64,000 bases of DNA from Halogeometricum sp. S3BR5-2 (GTDB taxonomy: Archaea; Halobacteriota; Halobacteria; Halobacteriales; Haloferacaceae): NCBI RefSeq assembly GCF_031624635.1, contig NZ_JAMQOQ010000001.1:496001-560000 (forward strand). The letters are read 5' to 3'. Position numbers and translations under genes: made by a program. The notes under the pieces are model-generated. The model was given only the letters and a program-made list of their open reading frames with translations, was not told the DNA's origin and made no database searches. Shown here one piece after another: positions 35,779-58,552 of the stretch. How positions within the stretch are numbered: the first letter of the stretch is position 1; each line of letters opens with the position of its first letter.

Positions 35779-35838
35779 GGTTAATCCCCCGTGACGCGCG
35801 AGCGTCACCGGCTTGGAAGAATCTCGCGTCAAATCGGG

Positions 35839-35892
35839 CATAAAGCTACGTACCCGATTATCAGACGTGAGTATCGTCGGGGAGCGTTTAAG
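35839..35892. promoter_or_regulatory. Bidirectional cheW / cheB promoter with motility box
   Basis: The 14-bp box TATCAGACGTGAGT sits at 35859-35872. Going right, TTTAAG starts at 35887, 28 bases from the first box base. Going left, the box reads ACTCACGTCTGATA and TTTATG starts at 35844, again 28 bases from its first base. Thus one dyad feeds two core promoters with identical geometry. The left-facing half is a perfect TGATA; the right-facing half is degenerate (TGAGT). See the findings for the other copies. Confidence 0.7.
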
Positions 35893-36032
35893 ACCCCTAC
35901 TCCGGAAGAACGGGTAGAGATGAGCGGTCAGAAAAACAGAACGTCACCGACCGGTCGCGCGCCGCCCGCCGGGCCGCGGTGCCGTTCTTCGCGCGCCGAA
36001 CGCGCGCACAGAGAACGAGGGGGAGGGTCGCG

Positions 36033-37205
36033 GTGAGCGCCGCATCCGAGTCGAACGCGGGGGGGAGCGCGACGCGCGCCGTCGTCGTCGACGACTCGCG
36101 GTTCATGCGGACGCTCATCCGCACGCTCCTCGAAGACGGGGGAATCGACGTCGTCGCGGAGGCGGAGAACGGGGCCGAGGCGGTCGACGTCGTCGCCGAA
36201 CACCGCCCCGACGTGGTGACGATGGACATCGAGATGCCCGAGATGAACGGCATCGAAGCCGTCGAGGCCATCATGGAGTCGTGCCCCACACCCGTGTTGA
36301 TGCTCTCGGCGCACGCGGAGGACGACGCCGACGTGACGTTCGAGGCCCTCGACGTGGGCGCCGTCGACTTCGTGACGAAACCCGGCGGCGAGGTCACCTC
36401 CTCGATGCCGCGCGTGAAGCGCGAACTCGTCGAGAAGGTCCGCTCGGCCGCGGCGGTGGACCTCTCGGCGACGCGGCGGACGGAGGCGCTGGGTCGCCGC
36501 GAGACGCCCTCGCGGGGCGGCAAGCGAGCCTCCCGACGGAGTCGGAGAAGCGGCGCCGACCGGACGGAGCGCGCGCCCGCGCCGTCGTCGCGTCGACGGG
36601 CGGCGTCGGACTCGCCGTACCCCGACGTGTCGACGCTGATACTCGGCGCGTCGACCGGGGGGCCGAACGTGGTCGAACGGGTCCTCGCGGACCTGCCGAC
36701 GGTCGCGAACCTCAGAATCGTGGTCGTCCAGCACATGCCCGCGGGGTTCACGAGGCGGTTCGCGGACCGCCTCGACGCGCGGTCGGCGTACCGCGTCGCG
36801 GAGGCGACGGACGGCGAGCGAATCGGCGTCGGCGAGGCGCGCGTCGCCCCCGGCGGGTCGCACCTCGTGGTCGACCGCGACCGCGCGGGGCGACTCTCGC
36901 TGAAACTCACGGACACGAAACCGGTCCACGGCGTCAAGCCCGCCATCGACCTGACGATGGCCTCGGCCGTCGAAGCCGTCGAGGGACCCCTCGTCGGAAC
37001 GCTCCTGACCGGGATGGGACGCGACGGGGTCGACGGCATGGGCCGTATCAACGCCGCGGGCGGGTACACGGTCGCACAGGACGAGGGAACGTCGGCTATC
37101 TTCGGGATGCCGAAGCGGGCCATCGAGGCGGGATGCGTCGACGCCGTCGCCCCCGCCGACGACATCGCCTCGCACATTCTGGCGGGACTGACGGAGGAGG
37201 AGTAG
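36033..37205 (+). CDS. cheB: CheB protein-glutamate methylesterase
   Basis: 390 residues from GTG. The receiver domain (~15-125) has DDSRF, phosphoacceptor Asp65 in TMDIEMPEMNG and the SAHA/KP sites. A basic linker follows, and then the methylesterase domain with the catalytic triad: Ser in LGASTGGPN, His in VVVQHMPAG, Asp in MGRDGVDGM. It removes methyl groups from (and deamidates) transducers. First gene of cheB-cheA-cheR-cheF1; cheA follows after 3 bases. A short 38-codon reading frame (35920-36036) overlaps the GTG as GTGA. Predicted TSS is near 35917. Confidence 0.96.
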   Translation: MSAASESNAGGSATRAVVVDDSRFMRTLIRTLLEDGGIDVVAEAENGAEAVDVVAEHRPDVVTMDIEMPEMNGIEAVEAIMESCPTPVLMLSAHAEDDADVTFEALDVGAVDFVTKPGGEVTSSMPRVKRELVEKVRSAAAVDLSATRRTEALGRRETPSRGGKRASRRSRRSGADRTERAPAPSSRRRAASDSPYPDVSTLILGASTGGPNVVERVLADLPTVANLRIVVVQHMPAGFTRRFADRLDARSAYRVAEATDGERIGVGEARVAPGGSHLVVDRDRAGRLSLKLTDTKPVHGVKPAIDLTMASAVEAVEGPLVGTLLTGMGRDGVDGMGRINAAGGYTVAQDEGTSAIFGMPKRAIEAGCVDAVAPADDIASHILAGLTEEE

Positions 37206-37208
37206 ACG

Positions 37209-39746
37209 ATGGACGAAGAACTCTACCAAGCATTCATCACGGAGTCGGAGGAGAGCATCACGCAACTGAACAACTCGCTCCTGGAGTTGGAGTCGAACCC
37301 CGAGGCCACGGATGCCATCGACGACATCTTCCGGCAGGCGCACACGCTGAAGGGGAACTTCGGCGCGATGGGCTTCGACAACGCCGCCACGGTGGCGCAC
37401 GCCGTCGAGGACCTCTTAGACGAGATACGGCACGACCGACTGGCGGTGACGCCCGACCGCATGGACCTCGTCTTCGACGGGATGGACGAGATTCTCGAAA
37501 TCCTCCGCGACATCGAGGAGCACGGCGAGTCCAAGAGCGACCCGACGGCCCTCGTCGAGGAGATACGCGCCGCCGCGCGGGCGGAGGACGCCGCGGGCGA
37601 GGAACCGTCGACGGCCGACGACGACGATGCCCCGAACGACGACGCCCTCGCCGTCGCGGCCGAGACCCTCGACTTCGAGAGCGACGAACTTACCGACGCC
37701 GAACTGCTGTATCACGCCGACATCGAACTGAACGCCGGCGAGATGAAGGGCGTCGACGCCGGCCTGTTCCTCGGCGGCGTGCCCGACGGCGTCGACGTCG
37801 TCGGGTCGGTCCCGGACATCGACAGCATCGAGGACGGCGAGTTCGACGACGGCTTCGCGCTGTTCGTCGCGAACGTCCCCGAGGCCGAACTCGGCCCGAC
37901 GCTCGCCGGCCTCTGGAAGGTCGAGAGCGTCGAACTGACCGACGTGTCGGCCGTCCTCGCGGACGACCGCGACGCCGAGGCGGCCCTCGCGGACTCGGAC
38001 GCGGAGGCGGATGCGGGCGCGGCCGTAGACGCGGACGCGGCCGAAGTCGACGCGGAACCGGTCGAATCGGGAGCCGCGGACGACGCCGAAGCCGAGGCCG
38101 CCGCGCTCGCCGAGACGTCCGAGGCGGACGCCGAACCGGACGCTGAGCCGGAAGAAGCCGAGGACGGCGACCCCGCCGCGGCGGTCGACCCCGCCGAGGC
38201 CGCGGAGGCCGTCGCGGCCGTCGAGGCCGCCTACTCCGGCGCCGAGTCGGAATCGGAGCAGGAGTCGGAGTCCGAGGACGGACGCGAGAGCGACCGCGAC
38301 GCCGGCGGCGAGTCGGTTTCCGACGCCGACGGGGACGCGGGCGCGGCCGAGGCGACCGCCGCCGAGAGCGGCGCAGAGGGGAGTGCCGAGGGCGCCGACT
38401 CGCCCGCGCGCGACGACGCGGACGAGGAGACGAAGGCGGAGGGCGAGAAGAAACGGGAGAAGCGGGAGAAGGGACAGTCCATCTCCGCGGTCAAGTCCGT
38501 CCGCGTCGACGTCGACCAACTCGACGAACTGCACGAACTGGTCGAGCAACTGGTCACCAGCCGCATCAAACTCCGGCAGGCGATGGAGGGCGAAGTGGTG
38601 GACACGACGAGCGGCCTCGACACGCTCGACGAACTGGACAAGATTTCGACGAACCTCCAGAACACGGTGATGGACATGCGGCTCATCCCGCTGAAGAAGG
38701 TGTTCGACAAGTTCCCGCGACTGGTCCGCGATTTGGCGCGCGACCAGGACAAGCGGGTCCGGTTCACCGTCGAGGGCGAGGACATCGAACTCGACCGGAC
38801 CATCCTCGACGAGATTTCCGACCCGCTGATGCACGTCCTGCGGAACGCCGTGGACCACGGCATCGAACTGCCGGACGAACGAGAGGCCAACGGGAAGCCG
38901 CGAACCGGGACGGTCGAACTCAGCGCGCACCGCGAGCACGACACGGTGGTCATCACCGCCTCCGACGACGGGAGCGGAATCAACGCCGACGCCGTGCGCG
39001 AGAAGGCCGTCTCGAACGGCCTCGCCACCCGCGAGGAACTGAACGCGATGCCCGACGAGGAGGTGTACGACTACATCTTCCACCCCGGCTTCTCGACGAA
39101 CGAGGAGATAACCGACGTCAGCGGCCGCGGCGTCGGCATGGACGTGGTGAAGACCACCGTCGAGGCGCTCGACGGCTCCGCCAGCGTCACCAGCACGCCC
39201 GGCGAGGGCTCGGTGTTCACCATCCGCCTGCCCGTCTCCGTCGCCATCATCAAGGTGCTGTTCGTCCGCGTCGGAGACCGGGAGTTCGGCGTTCCCATCA
39301 AGTACATCGACGAGATTTCGCGGCGCCAGAAGGTCCAGACGATCAACGGCGCGGAAGTCGTCGTCCACGAGGACTCGCTGTTCCCGCTCATCCGCCTCCG
39401 GGACGCCCTCGACATCGACGTCGCCGAGGGCGACGGCGGGATGATCGTTCGCATCCGCCCGTCGGACAGACAGGTGGCGCTGCACTGCGACCACGTCACC
39501 CGGCAGGAGGAAGTCGTCGTCACGCCGCTGCAGGGACCGCTCGGCGGCACCCAGGGGCTCTCCGGGACGGCCGTCATCGGCGACGGAAACGTCATCCCCA
39601 TCCTCGACGTGAGCACGCTCGAACTGCCGTCCGGCGGACGGGAGGCGCTGCGCGAGTGGACGCCGCCGTCCGACGGCGAGTCGGCCGAGGGGTCAGCCGA
39701 CACCGACGCCGACGGGCCCGCCGAAGTCGAGGAGGCGGCGGACTGA
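37209..39746 (+). CDS. cheA: CheA chemotaxis histidine kinase
   Basis: 845 residues. Domains in order: Hpt P1 with phosphoacceptor His45 (RQAHTLKGNFGAMGF), a P2-like CheY-docking segment ~150-255, a highly acidic Ala/Glu/Asp-rich linker (~255-415), dimerisation helices ~425-490 (VRVDVDQLDELHELVEQLV), the ATPase domain with N box LRNAVDHGIE, G boxes DDGSGIN and GRGVGMDVVK, and the CheW-like P5 domain ending near 800. It phosphorylates CheY and CheB. The ~160-residue acidic linker is longer than in bacterial CheA and is presumably disordered in high salt. cheR overlaps the stop (TGATG). Confidence 0.97.
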   Translation: MDEELYQAFITESEESITQLNNSLLELESNPEATDAIDDIFRQAHTLKGNFGAMGFDNAATVAHAVEDLLDEIRHDRLAVTPDRMDLVFDGMDEILEILRDIEEHGESKSDPTALVEEIRAAARAEDAAGEEPSTADDDDAPNDDALAVAAETLDFESDELTDAELLYHADIELNAGEMKGVDAGLFLGGVPDGVDVVGSVPDIDSIEDGEFDDGFALFVANVPEAELGPTLAGLWKVESVELTDVSAVLADDRDAEAALADSDAEADAGAAVDADAAEVDAEPVESGAADDAEAEAAALAETSEADAEPDAEPEEAEDGDPAAAVDPAEAAEAVAAVEAAYSGAESESEQESESEDGRESDRDAGGESVSDADGDAGAAEATAAESGAEGSAEGADSPARDDADEETKAEGEKKREKREKGQSISAVKSVRVDVDQLDELHELVEQLVTSRIKLRQAMEGEVVDTTSGLDTLDELDKISTNLQNTVMDMRLIPLKKVFDKFPRLVRDLARDQDKRVRFTVEGEDIELDRTILDEISDPLMHVLRNAVDHGIELPDEREANGKPRTGTVELSAHREHDTVVITASDDGSGINADAVREKAVSNGLATREELNAMPDEEVYDYIFHPGFSTNEEITDVSGRGVGMDVVKTTVEALDGSASVTSTPGEGSVFTIRLPVSVAIIKVLFVRVGDREFGVPIKYIDEISRRQKVQTINGAEVVVHEDSLFPLIRLRDALDIDVAEGDGGMIVRIRPSDRQVALHCDHVTRQEEVVVTPLQGPLGGTQGLSGTAVIGDGNVIPILDVSTLELPSGGREALREWTPPSDGESAEGSADTDADGPAEVEEAAD

Positions 39747-40582
39747 TGTCGCGCTCGGAGGCCTCCGACGAGGGGTTCCGACGGCTGCTCGACCACGTCG
39801 AGGAGTCGCTGTCGTTCGCGACGAGTTCGTACAACGACGCGTACCTCGACCGGCGAATCTCCGCGCGGATGCGCCGCCGCGGCGTCGACGGCTACGACGC
39901 CTACCAGTCGCTCCTGACCGAGGACGCCGAGGAGCAGCGGGCGCTGTTGAACTCGCTGAGCGTCAACGTCACCAGTTTCTTCCGCAACCCGGAGGTGTGG
40001 GAGGCGCTCCGCGAGGTGCTGGCCGAACTCGCCGAGAACGGGAACGGTCGAGTCCGCATCTGGAGCGCCGCCTGCTCGGACGGCCGCGAGGCGTACTCGC
40101 TTGCGATGCTGGCGCACGACGACGACCGCATCGACCCGAACCGCGTGTCGATACTCGGCACCGACATCAAACCCGAGATACTCGACGCCGCGCGGGCGGG
40201 CGAGTACCGCGCCTCCGAGACGAACGACGTCGCGGAGCAACTCGCGCCGCTCTCCGGGAACGACCGCTACGTCGAACGCGACGGCGACGTCTACCGCGTG
40301 AGCGAGGCGGTGAAGTCGCTGGTGTCGTTCGAGAAACACGACCTCGTGCAGGAGCGGCCGCCGGACACGTTCGACTTGGTGGTGTGTCGGAACCTGTTCA
40401 TCTACATCAACAGCGAGGCGAAGCAGGCGATATTCGACACGCTGGGGTCGGCGCTCAGCCCGCACGGCTACCTCACCATCGGGATGACCGAGACGGTGCC
40501 GCCGTCCTGTCGCGACTGGTTCGAACCGGTCGAGAAACGGCTCCGAATCTACCGGAACGCGACGGGGTCTTCGACTCCGTGA
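39746..40582 (+). CDS. cheR: CheR chemotaxis methyltransferase
   Basis: 278 residues. N-terminal helical domain with the substrate-binding basics (FRRLLDHVEESLSF, RISARMRRRGV) and the SAM-binding Rossmann domain: IWSAACSDGREAYSLAML, GTDIKPEILDAAR, FDLVVCRNLFIYIN. It methylates transducer glutamates with S-adenosylmethionine. Start ATG overlaps the cheA stop. Length is typical. Confidence 0.97.
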   Translation: MSRSEASDEGFRRLLDHVEESLSFATSSYNDAYLDRRISARMRRRGVDGYDAYQSLLTEDAEEQRALLNSLSVNVTSFFRNPEVWEALREVLAELAENGNGRVRIWSAACSDGREAYSLAMLAHDDDRIDPNRVSILGTDIKPEILDAARAGEYRASETNDVAEQLAPLSGNDRYVERDGDVYRVSEAVKSLVSFEKHDLVQERPPDTFDLVVCRNLFIYINSEAKQAIFDTLGSALSPHGYLTIGMTETVPPSCRDWFEPVEKRLRIYRNATGSSTP

Positions 40583-40590
40583 GATAACAG

Positions 40591-41475
40591 ATGAAGCCTG
40601 GCGAGACGAAGGTCGCGGACACGAACGGACGATTCCTGCAGGTGCGGCGCGGCGGGCGGAGTCTCAACGACGCCAACTGGACCAACGGGCGGATTCTCCT
40701 CTCGAATCAGCGGCTCATCCTCGCGGGCACCGGCGGGAAGCGGACGTTCGCGCTCTCCGACATCGAACAGATCGGCGGGCGGTTCGACGTGAACCAGCGC
40801 ATCGCCACCGTCTCCGATTACCTCGCGCTCCGGTACAACGACGGTGAGGACGTGGTCCTCGTAGCGCCGGCGGACCCCGACGAGTTCGAACTCGACCTGT
40901 ACGGGACGCTCCTGAACGCGACGAAGTTCCTCGTCCGCCACCCGGCCGTCGAGGGCGGCGTCGTCCAGAACACCGAGTGGGTCGGCGCGCGACTGAAAGT
41001 CGAGGAGGCGGGGGTCAGCATCGCCACCGTGGAGGGGTCGTTCGTCCACGTCAGACTCGACGACATCGGCGACATCGAGATGGGCCGACGGACGGTCCGC
41101 GAGGAGACGCGCGAGGTCATCGAAGTCGAGCACTCCTACGACGACGGGACGAGCGTGCAGACGTACATTTCGGGGCCGGAGCGCCCGGTGACCATCCTGA
41201 AGTCGCTGCTCCGAATCGGCGAGGAGCAGTCCGAGACGGCGCTCGAACTGTCGAAGCAGGACAAACAGGTTCTGATGGCGCTGTACTCCGGCGTCTCTCC
41301 CTTCGACATCCCGGCCTTTCTCGGCATCGACGTCGACGACGTCGAGGAACTGTTCACCCGCCTCATCGACCACAACGTCCTCGACGAGGTCCGCGTCCGC
41401 CACGAGGTGGAGTTGAACGCCCGCGGGCGCTCCATCGCCGCGGACGCCATCGACGACCAAGCCGCGAACATGTGA
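40591..41475 (+). CDS. cheF: CheF-type archaellum adaptor (CheF1)
   Basis: 294 residues. DUF439/CheF pattern: WTNGRILLSNQRLILAG, SFVHVRLDDIGDIEMGRR, ITILKSLLRIGEE-type ending TILKSLLRIGE, and a C-terminal winged-helix-like segment KQVLMALYSGVSPFDIP. CheF proteins are known in Halobacterium to bind CheY, CheC2 and CheD on one side and archaellum components on the other. It closes the cheBAR operon 8 bases after cheR. A paralogue, CheF2, lies at 42409. Confidence 0.92.
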   Translation: MKPGETKVADTNGRFLQVRRGGRSLNDANWTNGRILLSNQRLILAGTGGKRTFALSDIEQIGGRFDVNQRIATVSDYLALRYNDGEDVVLVAPADPDEFELDLYGTLLNATKFLVRHPAVEGGVVQNTEWVGARLKVEEAGVSIATVEGSFVHVRLDDIGDIEMGRRTVREETREVIEVEHSYDDGTSVQTYISGPERPVTILKSLLRIGEEQSETALELSKQDKQVLMALYSGVSPFDIPAFLGIDVDDVEELFTRLIDHNVLDEVRVRHEVELNARGRSIAADAIDDQAANM

Positions 41476-49924: not shown

Positions 49925-50193
49925 CCGACTCGCCTCCGCTGCGTGCGACGGGCCGTCTCGACCCGCGGGTCGTTCGACGGCGACGGACGGCCCTCACACC
50001 GCCGTCGCGTCGACTCCCGGCCGGACGAGTACTCCGACGTCGGGGAAACAGGTAGCATTGACTCAGATGAACAGTCATCGGTACAAGAATGTTCCCACCA
50101 AATTATCAGCCGTGATACGAAATTTCGGGGCGACTCGCCGCCGCGTTCGGCTGTCTTCGCGCGTGTGAGAAGAATTATCCGGGTGGAACCCCG
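49925..50193. other. Divergent arlCE / KaiC-like intergenic region
   Basis: 269 bases without a gene. It contains the perfect motility palindrome at 50104-50117 and an AT-rich element AATTAT near 50171 in front of the plus-strand gene. Nothing else is recognised. Confidence 0.6.
50084..50117 (-). promoter_or_regulatory. arlCE operon promoter with motility box
   Basis: TATCAGCCGTGATA at 50104-50117 is a perfect palindrome of the TATCA-N4-TGATA type. On the minus strand, 28 bases from its first base, the sequence is TTCTTG (50089-50084), a weak TATA; on the plus strand the same offset gives GACTCG, no TATA. So it most likely drives arlCE-cheF2 on the minus strand, with a start site near 50059. 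The weak TATA would make the promoter dependent on an activator. Confidence 0.55.
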
Positions 50194-52549: not shown

Positions 52550-52583
52550 CATAATCCTACGGTCTCGATTATCCGCTGTGATA
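52550..52583 (-). promoter_or_regulatory. Archaellin promoter with motility box
   Basis: On the minus strand TATCACAGCGGATA (52583-52570) begins 28 bases before ATTATG (52555-52550). The distal TATC is intact; the proximal TGATA reads GGATA. On the plus strand the 14-mer reads TATCCGCTGTGATA. Predicted start site near 52525. Confidence 0.65.
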
Positions 52584-52715: not shown

Positions 52716-53054
52716 TCAGTCCTGCGCGATCTTCCGCCAGACGTCGTCGAGTTTGTTCTTCACTTCGGGGCGCTCGGTCACCTGCACGTTGCACTCCTGC
52801 CCGTCGAACCGGATGACTATCTCGTCGACCTCGCGTCGGTAGACGTTCGTTCGCCGGTGCTCGTCCGAGAGGACCCTGTCGTGGAGTTCGAGGAGGCCGG
52901 CGGCCGTGAGTTCCTCGATGCGCCGATAGCACGTCGCGATCGGAATGTCGAGCATTTTACTGAACTCCTGTGCGGAGTGCGGTTCGTCCGCGGCGCGTAA
53001 GATATCGGGGTTGTATTCGTTGCCGAGCGCTGCGAGGGTCCTGTCAGACTCCAT
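52716..53054 (-). CDS. Winged-helix (ArsR-type) regulator beside the archaellins
   Basis: 112 residues. Winged helix at ~7-65: NEYNPDILRAADEPHSAQEF, IPIATCYRRIEELTAAGLLE, then the wing with DEHRRTNVYRREVDEIVIRF. No metal site or sensor domain. It is encoded upstream of the archaellins on the same strand. ATTAAC at 53083-53078 is 30 bases before the ATG (leaderless). Its own promoter has a half-site of the motility box. It is the best local candidate to bind the box, but this is inference. Confidence 0.85.
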   Translation of the reverse strand: MESDRTLAALGNEYNPDILRAADEPHSAQEFSKMLDIPIATCYRRIEELTAAGLLELHDRVLSDEHRRTNVYRREVDEIVIRFDGQECNVQVTERPEVKNKLDDVWRKIAQD

Positions 53055-53840: not shown

Positions 53841-53874
53841 TATCATCGCTGATAATGGGGGGGAAGGGTTTATA
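53841..53874 (+). promoter_or_regulatory. cheY-cheC-cheD promoter with motility box
   Basis: TATCATCGCTGATA at 53841-53854 (perfect TATCA-N4-TGATA) precedes TTTATA at 53869-53874 by the standard 28 bases. The TATA is 30 bases before the cheY ATG, so the mRNA should be leaderless, even though GGAGG is printed 5 bases upstream of the start. Confidence 0.75.
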
Positions 53875-56056: not shown

Positions 56057-56090
56057 TATCTGTTTTGATATTCGGCGGGGTGGGTTTATT
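56057..56090 (+). promoter_or_regulatory. Transducer promoter with motility box
   Basis: TATCTGTTTTGATA at 56057-56070, then TTTATT at 56085-56090, the standard 28 bases from box to TATA. The predicted start site (~56115) coincides with the second ATG of the transducer reading frame. Confidence 0.7.
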
Positions 56091-58518: not shown

Positions 58519-58552
58519 TATCTCGACTGATATTCTCGGGGGCAAGTTTATC
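58519..58552 (+). promoter_or_regulatory. arlD-like gene promoter with motility box
   Basis: TATCTCGACTGATA at 58519-58532, then TTTATC at 58547-58552, again 28 bases from box to TATA. Predicted start ~58577, leader ~77 bases before ATG 58654, which has GGTGAGG 4 bases upstream. Confidence 0.7.

Follow-up and report, generated by a model that had tools for sequence, protein, structure and literature searches.

The closest described counterparts of the element considered here are the operators of CsmR in Haloferax volcanii (Nussbaum et al. 2026; PMC13286277). According to the main text of that report, CsmR (hvo_1209) is a 13-kDa winged-helix protein, predicted to be a dimer and grouped as Lrp/AsnC-like by structure modelling, whose gene adjoins the archaellin genes. 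By ChIP-seq, 50 of 65 peaks carry the motif TATCA(N4)TGATA, which forms a unit of ∼34 bp together with a TATA box, and the responsive transcription units include cheB/A/R/F1, cheY/C/D, arlA and arlC-J. The sites presented in the main text are strand-oriented and serve one promoter; a box common to divergent promoters is not discussed there, and cheW is not mentioned. For the layout itself, the closest precedent is provided by the GvpE sequences between gvpA and gvpD, where a central activator region is flanked by divergent haloarchaeal promoters (Bauer et al. 2008, reviewed in PMC4390858). In that system, a leucine-zipper-like activator uses two 20-nt elements, one per promoter, that overlap by 7 nt; the two TATA-BRE units are 35 bp apart, and the spacing to the BRE is essential, with a 22-bp insertion abolishing activation on the affected side. 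A further parallel is found in the archaellum promoters of Methanococcus and Pyrococcus, which likewise combine a winged-helix regulator positioned just upstream, EarA, with a weak BRE, and at which EarA is thought to recruit TFB; according to the main text of the CsmR report, EarA is missing from haloarchaea and is not related to CsmR (PMC13286277).

The window analysed here is a stretch of 64,000 nt from Halogeometricum sp. S3BR5-2. Searches with Pfam confirm two divergent units of che genes within it, CheW leftward on the minus strand and CheB-CheA-CheR-CheF rightward on the plus strand (Table 1); the nearest relatives of the CheW protein are from Halogeometricum (88–91%). The spacer between cheW and cheB contains the 14-mer TATCAGACGTGAGT (reverse complement ACTCACGTCTGATA), which agrees with TATCA-N4-TGATA at eight of the ten defined bases: the half-site facing cheW, TGATA, is perfect, and that facing cheB, TGAGT, is degenerate, with agreement at 3/5 bases. 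The gap between the box and the adjacent TATA box is exactly 14 nt on both sides. A previous sequence-only reading had described a single symmetric 14-mer between the two units, lying 28 bases from a TATA box in either direction and having one perfect and one degenerate half. All of this is borne out, the 28 bases being the 14-nt box plus a 14-nt gap. The arrangement differs from that of GvpE in that the dyad of 14 bp is wholly common to the two promoters and the TATA boxes are 42 bp apart, and also in the class of the presumed protein. A pair of overlapping upstream activating sequences of the GvpE type, comprising two 8-4-8 elements, was considered as well; what is found is a single dyad with a 5-4-5 layout.

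Table 1. Positions of the features discussed in the text, numbered from the first base of the window
Feature	Position	Strand	Basis
cheW, 158 aa	35302..35778	-	Pfam CheW, E 3.9e-29
cheW TATA-like box TTTATG	35839..35844 (35844-35839 on minus)	-	sequence
14-nt spacer from box to cheW TATA box, ATCGGGTACGTAGC	35845..35858	-	length constant at all strong CsmR promoters of the window
Shared CsmR-type box	35859..35872	.	motif match and conservation in relatives
14-nt spacer from box to cheB TATA box, ATCGTCGGGGAGCG	35873..35886	+	sequence
cheBARF TATA-like box TTTAAG	35887..35892	+	sequence
Small ORF, 38 codons, from the predicted cheB transcript start	35920..36036	+	position; stop/start junction kept in relatives
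cheB	36033..37205	+	Pfam Response_reg and CheB_methylest; start codon GTG
cheA	37209..39746	+	Pfam Hpt, P2, H-kinase_dim, HATPase_c, CheW
cheR	39746..40582	+	Pfam CheR, E 6e-49; ORF listed from 39656, internal ATG 39746 likely
cheF	40591..41475	+	Pfam CheF-arch, E 6e-75
Perfect box flanked by arlC/E (minus) and a KaiC-like gene, probably cirA-like (plus)	50104..50117	-	motif
Box upstream of archaellin gene arlA, with ATTATG at a gap of 14 nt	52570..52583	-	motif and gap
csmR ortholog, 112-aa winged-helix protein, presumed box binder	52716..53054	-	HTH_20, identity, gene order
Box 14 nt before cheY TATA box	53841..53854	+	motif and gap; cheY is a response regulator
Box 14 nt before chemoreceptor-gene TATA box	56057..56070	+	motif and gap
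Box 14 nt before TATA box of arlD/E-like gene	58519..58532	+	motif and gap

Intergenic regions are locally AT-richer in this GC-rich genome, and an AT-rich palindrome could by chance have come to lie between two unrelated TATA boxes in a short intergenic region. However, the window has a single instance of TAAA-14-box-14-TTTA, whereas none of 300 dinucleotide shuffles yields one, even with any equal gap of 0–28 nt and three mismatches allowed, and the two-sided site is unique in the 4.66-Mb genome (pattern search, ≤2 mismatches). The genome-wide statistics all derive from pattern searches, and these are noisy at two to three mismatches: at this stringency, the two-sided pattern matches controls too in many genomes, and a search at three mismatches gives 76 matches versus 52 for controls. 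We have, therefore, placed weight on sites with at most one mismatch and on synteny.

The box is present in all of the 31 relatives' loci that were collected via CheW, which represent two families, Haloferacaceae and Haloarculaceae (Halogeometricum, Salinigranum, 12 Haloferax records, Haloarcula, Halosimplex, Halorientalis, Halapricum and Halorhabdus), and it agrees with the motif at 8–10 of the 10 bases. The gaps are 14/14 in 28 of these loci and 14/16 in the other three, where the 16 is on the cheW side; the TATA box on the cheB side is at 14 nt in every case. The spacers are constant in length but vary in sequence between the families, and conservation of this kind across two families already contradicts a chance origin, to which we attach a negligible probability. 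The position of the box relative to the promoter elements, together with its conservation, also led us to set aside its interpretation as a recombination site, a terminator or a CRISPR element. Among genomes of other families, one-way boxes were seen near some che genes, with no clear shared cheW–cheB site. Within the two families that carry it, the shared site is found in none of the eight genomes that lack a csmR ortholog, although this co-occurrence may merely mirror the presence of motility genes.

The asymmetry of the half-sites is itself conserved: that facing cheW is TGATA in all 31 relatives, and that facing cheB is changed at its outermost base in 30. The sequence-only reading took the asymmetry to predict promoters of unequal strength; it does not, however, allow the weaker promoter to be predicted, since one-way CsmR promoters conserve their two outer bases to a similar extent (distal T, 91%; proximal A, 86%). 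Taken further, the same asymmetry might mean that CsmR governs cheW alone, via the perfect proximal half, with the TATA box on the cheB side served weakly or not at all. The degenerate half-site seen here and its altered outer base in the relatives would be in keeping with this. Against it, the TATA box on the cheB side is retained at 14 nt throughout, one-way sites, too, can combine a proximal half of the TGAGT type with a TATA box at 14 nt, and it is the cheB/A/R/F1 side that the main text of the CsmR report names as responsive in H. volcanii (PMC13286277). We regard control in one direction as improbable.

The dimer that had been postulated without a name is most likely CsmR. The csmR ortholog of the window lies immediately upstream of two archaellin genes, a gene order that matches that of hvo_1209, and its product shares 91% identity with its counterparts in two genomes that are likely to be Haloferax (G126 and G192), both of which have a cheW–cheB site resembling the named Haloferax loci. 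Pfam assigns the protein to HTH_20, with an E of 1.5e-8 that passes the curated cut-off, which contrasts with the Lrp/AsnC-like grouping given in the CsmR report; a comparison of its sequence with solved structures found no relative. In common with the H. volcanii operators, the box has the TATCA(N4)TGATA motif, and it is associated with the same downstream units, namely cheBARF, cheY, arlA, arlC-J and arlD; moreover, the ∼34-bp unit described in the main text of that report corresponds to 14 + 14 + 6, i.e. the box, gap and TATA box as measured here (PMC13286277).

Further CsmR-type boxes are found in the window, where TATCA-N4-TGATA with at most two mismatches occurs at nine sites versus 1.5 expected, a number reached by none of 100 shuffles. 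Their spacing is strict: for 89 non-redundant boxes from the window and the 31 related loci, TTTA was seen at a gap of 14 nt in 65 cases versus 0.08 expected, with none at a gap of 13 and one at a gap of 15. In the organism's own genome, strong boxes precede cheY, arlA, arlD and four chemoreceptor-type genes. Boxes with the 14-nt gap that lie outside the window (L154, L158 and L163, at C1:281526, C1:378081 and C1:1134885) stand before two chemoreceptor genes, one of the protoglobin and one of the PAS type, and a gene for a receptor-like protein with a HAMP domain, and at most of them an ATG lies ∼30 nt past the TATA box, as in leaderless transcripts. The perfect box between arlC/E and the KaiC-like gene has a weak TATA-like sequence, TTCTTG, at a gap of 14 nt towards arl, but no such sequence towards the KaiC-like gene.

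Based on motif, spacing, regulator gene and target unit, the 14-mer is a candidate CsmR operator. We consider it likely that it acts as an operator common to two divergent promoters, thereby tying the expression of the adaptor CheW and of the kinase and adaptation proteins CheB-A-R-F to the motility regulon. The identity of the motif and the predicted dimeric state of CsmR make joint control by a single dimer well supported, and this part of the sequence-only reading stands, given the conserved symmetric box and the equal gaps; the claim that the two units are co-activated exceeds the evidence. Use of one box by two promoters at mirror-image spacing would be a variant that is not described in the text of the CsmR report (PMC13286277).

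In the proposed mechanism, one CsmR dimer would bind the two-fold symmetric box, the dyad axis of which is predicted to lie 7 + 14 = 21 bp away from where either TATA box begins. This distance is close to two turns of the helix, so the dimer would present the same face to the TFB/TBP sites of cheW and cheBARF. Both TTTATG and TTTAAG fit the TTWT-type TATA box of the canonical haloarchaeal basal promoter, the consensus for which also includes a CGAAA-type BRE (PMC4983044). No CGAAA-type BRE precedes either TATA box; GGTACGTAGC and TCGGGGAGCG stand there instead. As the BRE region falls within the 14-nt spacer and both promoters are without such a BRE, the dimer, placed just upstream of the spot where TFB binds, would most likely help to recruit TFB. 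Recruitment of TFB is also what the discoverers of CsmR infer from the position of the motif, according to the main text of their report (PMC13286277). An A at −6/−5 is found in 12% of CsmR promoters versus 32% of 37 general promoters, and across the whole −6 to −1 BRE region the two sets do not differ; both are weak comparisons. Transcription is predicted to start near 35814 for cheW and near 35917 for cheBARF, the latter just ahead of the ATG at 35920.

The direction of the control is less straightforward. We infer occupancy of the cheW–cheB box, contact by the dimer on both sides and the sign of the regulation. According to the main text of the CsmR report, deletion of csmR in H. volcanii raises target transcripts, including cheB/A/R/F1, yet abolishes motility (PMC13286277), so the support for joint control is much stronger than that for co-activation. 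CsmR could instead be a shared brake that, once on the box, represses both promoters or restrains them with CirA. The same source reports that up-regulation on deletion is greatest for genes whose CsmR peaks carry the motif and match the strand, and part of this is interpreted by its authors as direct derepression (PMC13286277); additionally, at the csmR promoter of Haloarculaceae, only 2 nt separate the box from the TATA box, a typical repressing position. At cheW and cheB, however, the box is located upstream of the promoter elements, where an activator site would sit, and at a fixed gap of 14 nt it does not occlude the TATA box. Moreover, the main text describes over-expression of CsmR as giving hypermotile cells, the converse of the non-motile deletion (PMC13286277). 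On balance, we consider joint repression rather unlikely.

The csmR promoter has features of its own. At most of the Haloarculaceae csmR loci, the box is found at the 2-nt distance just described (e.g. L041:11356-11405, L114-L116 and L119-L123), and in several other genera a box-like sequence overlies the csmR start codon (L099, L100, L105, L112, L113 and L120). At the promoter of the csmR gene of this window, no such box was found. These positions suggest that csmR may be autorepressed. In the Haloarculaceae loci L041-L056, csmR follows cheW on the same strand at a distance of ∼1 kb, which places the regulator gene close to the shared operator.

On the cheB side, the ATG that follows the predicted transcript start is 33 nt past the TATA box and opens a small ORF, the stop codon of which, TGA, overlaps the GTG start codon of cheB. 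An ATG located 44–56 nt from the edge of the box opens such an ORF in 20 of 23 non-redundant cheW–cheB loci (this one and the related L026-L055, L092 and L125-L127); these ORFs have 13–52 codons and variable sequences, and in the same 20 loci they end between −6 and +7 nt from the first base of cheB. In the Haloferacaceae, the junction with cheB is (A/G)TGA in all loci except one, and the frame is the same for nine of the ten distinct spacings (binomial P of about 4e-4). In a shuffle test, the openness of the ORF given its frame was not significant for the GC-rich Haloferacaceae leaders (P 0.28–0.94), whereas the Haloarculaceae junctions gave P values of 0.008–0.034 each, with the exception of L045 (0.94). 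As openness is unsurprising in GC-rich DNA, the signal in the Haloferacaceae is the frame kept over differing lengths. The small ORF looks like a leaderless leader ORF that is translationally coupled to cheB. H. volcanii is known to use termination–reinitiation where genes overlap (PMC6728339); cheB is missing from the uORF cases of a dRNA-seq study of that organism, which covered longer leaders only. It is conceivable, and we offer this tentatively, that one CsmR dimer contacts TFB/TBP of both promoters, possibly simultaneously, and so sets the ratio of CheW to CheBARF, with the small ORF at the 5' end of the cheB message then retuning that message by passing ribosomes on to cheB.

The first report of CsmR dates from 2026, and the paradox that surrounds the protein is whether it acts as an activator or a repressor. 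One dimer facing two promoters at identical spacing would amount to a built-in paired test of its sign, and the constant gap of 14 nt, taken with the box at the promoter of csmR itself, suggests that position decides the sign of the regulation. More generally, the layout illustrates how archaea could hold the ratios of their chemotaxis proteins fixed through one operator.
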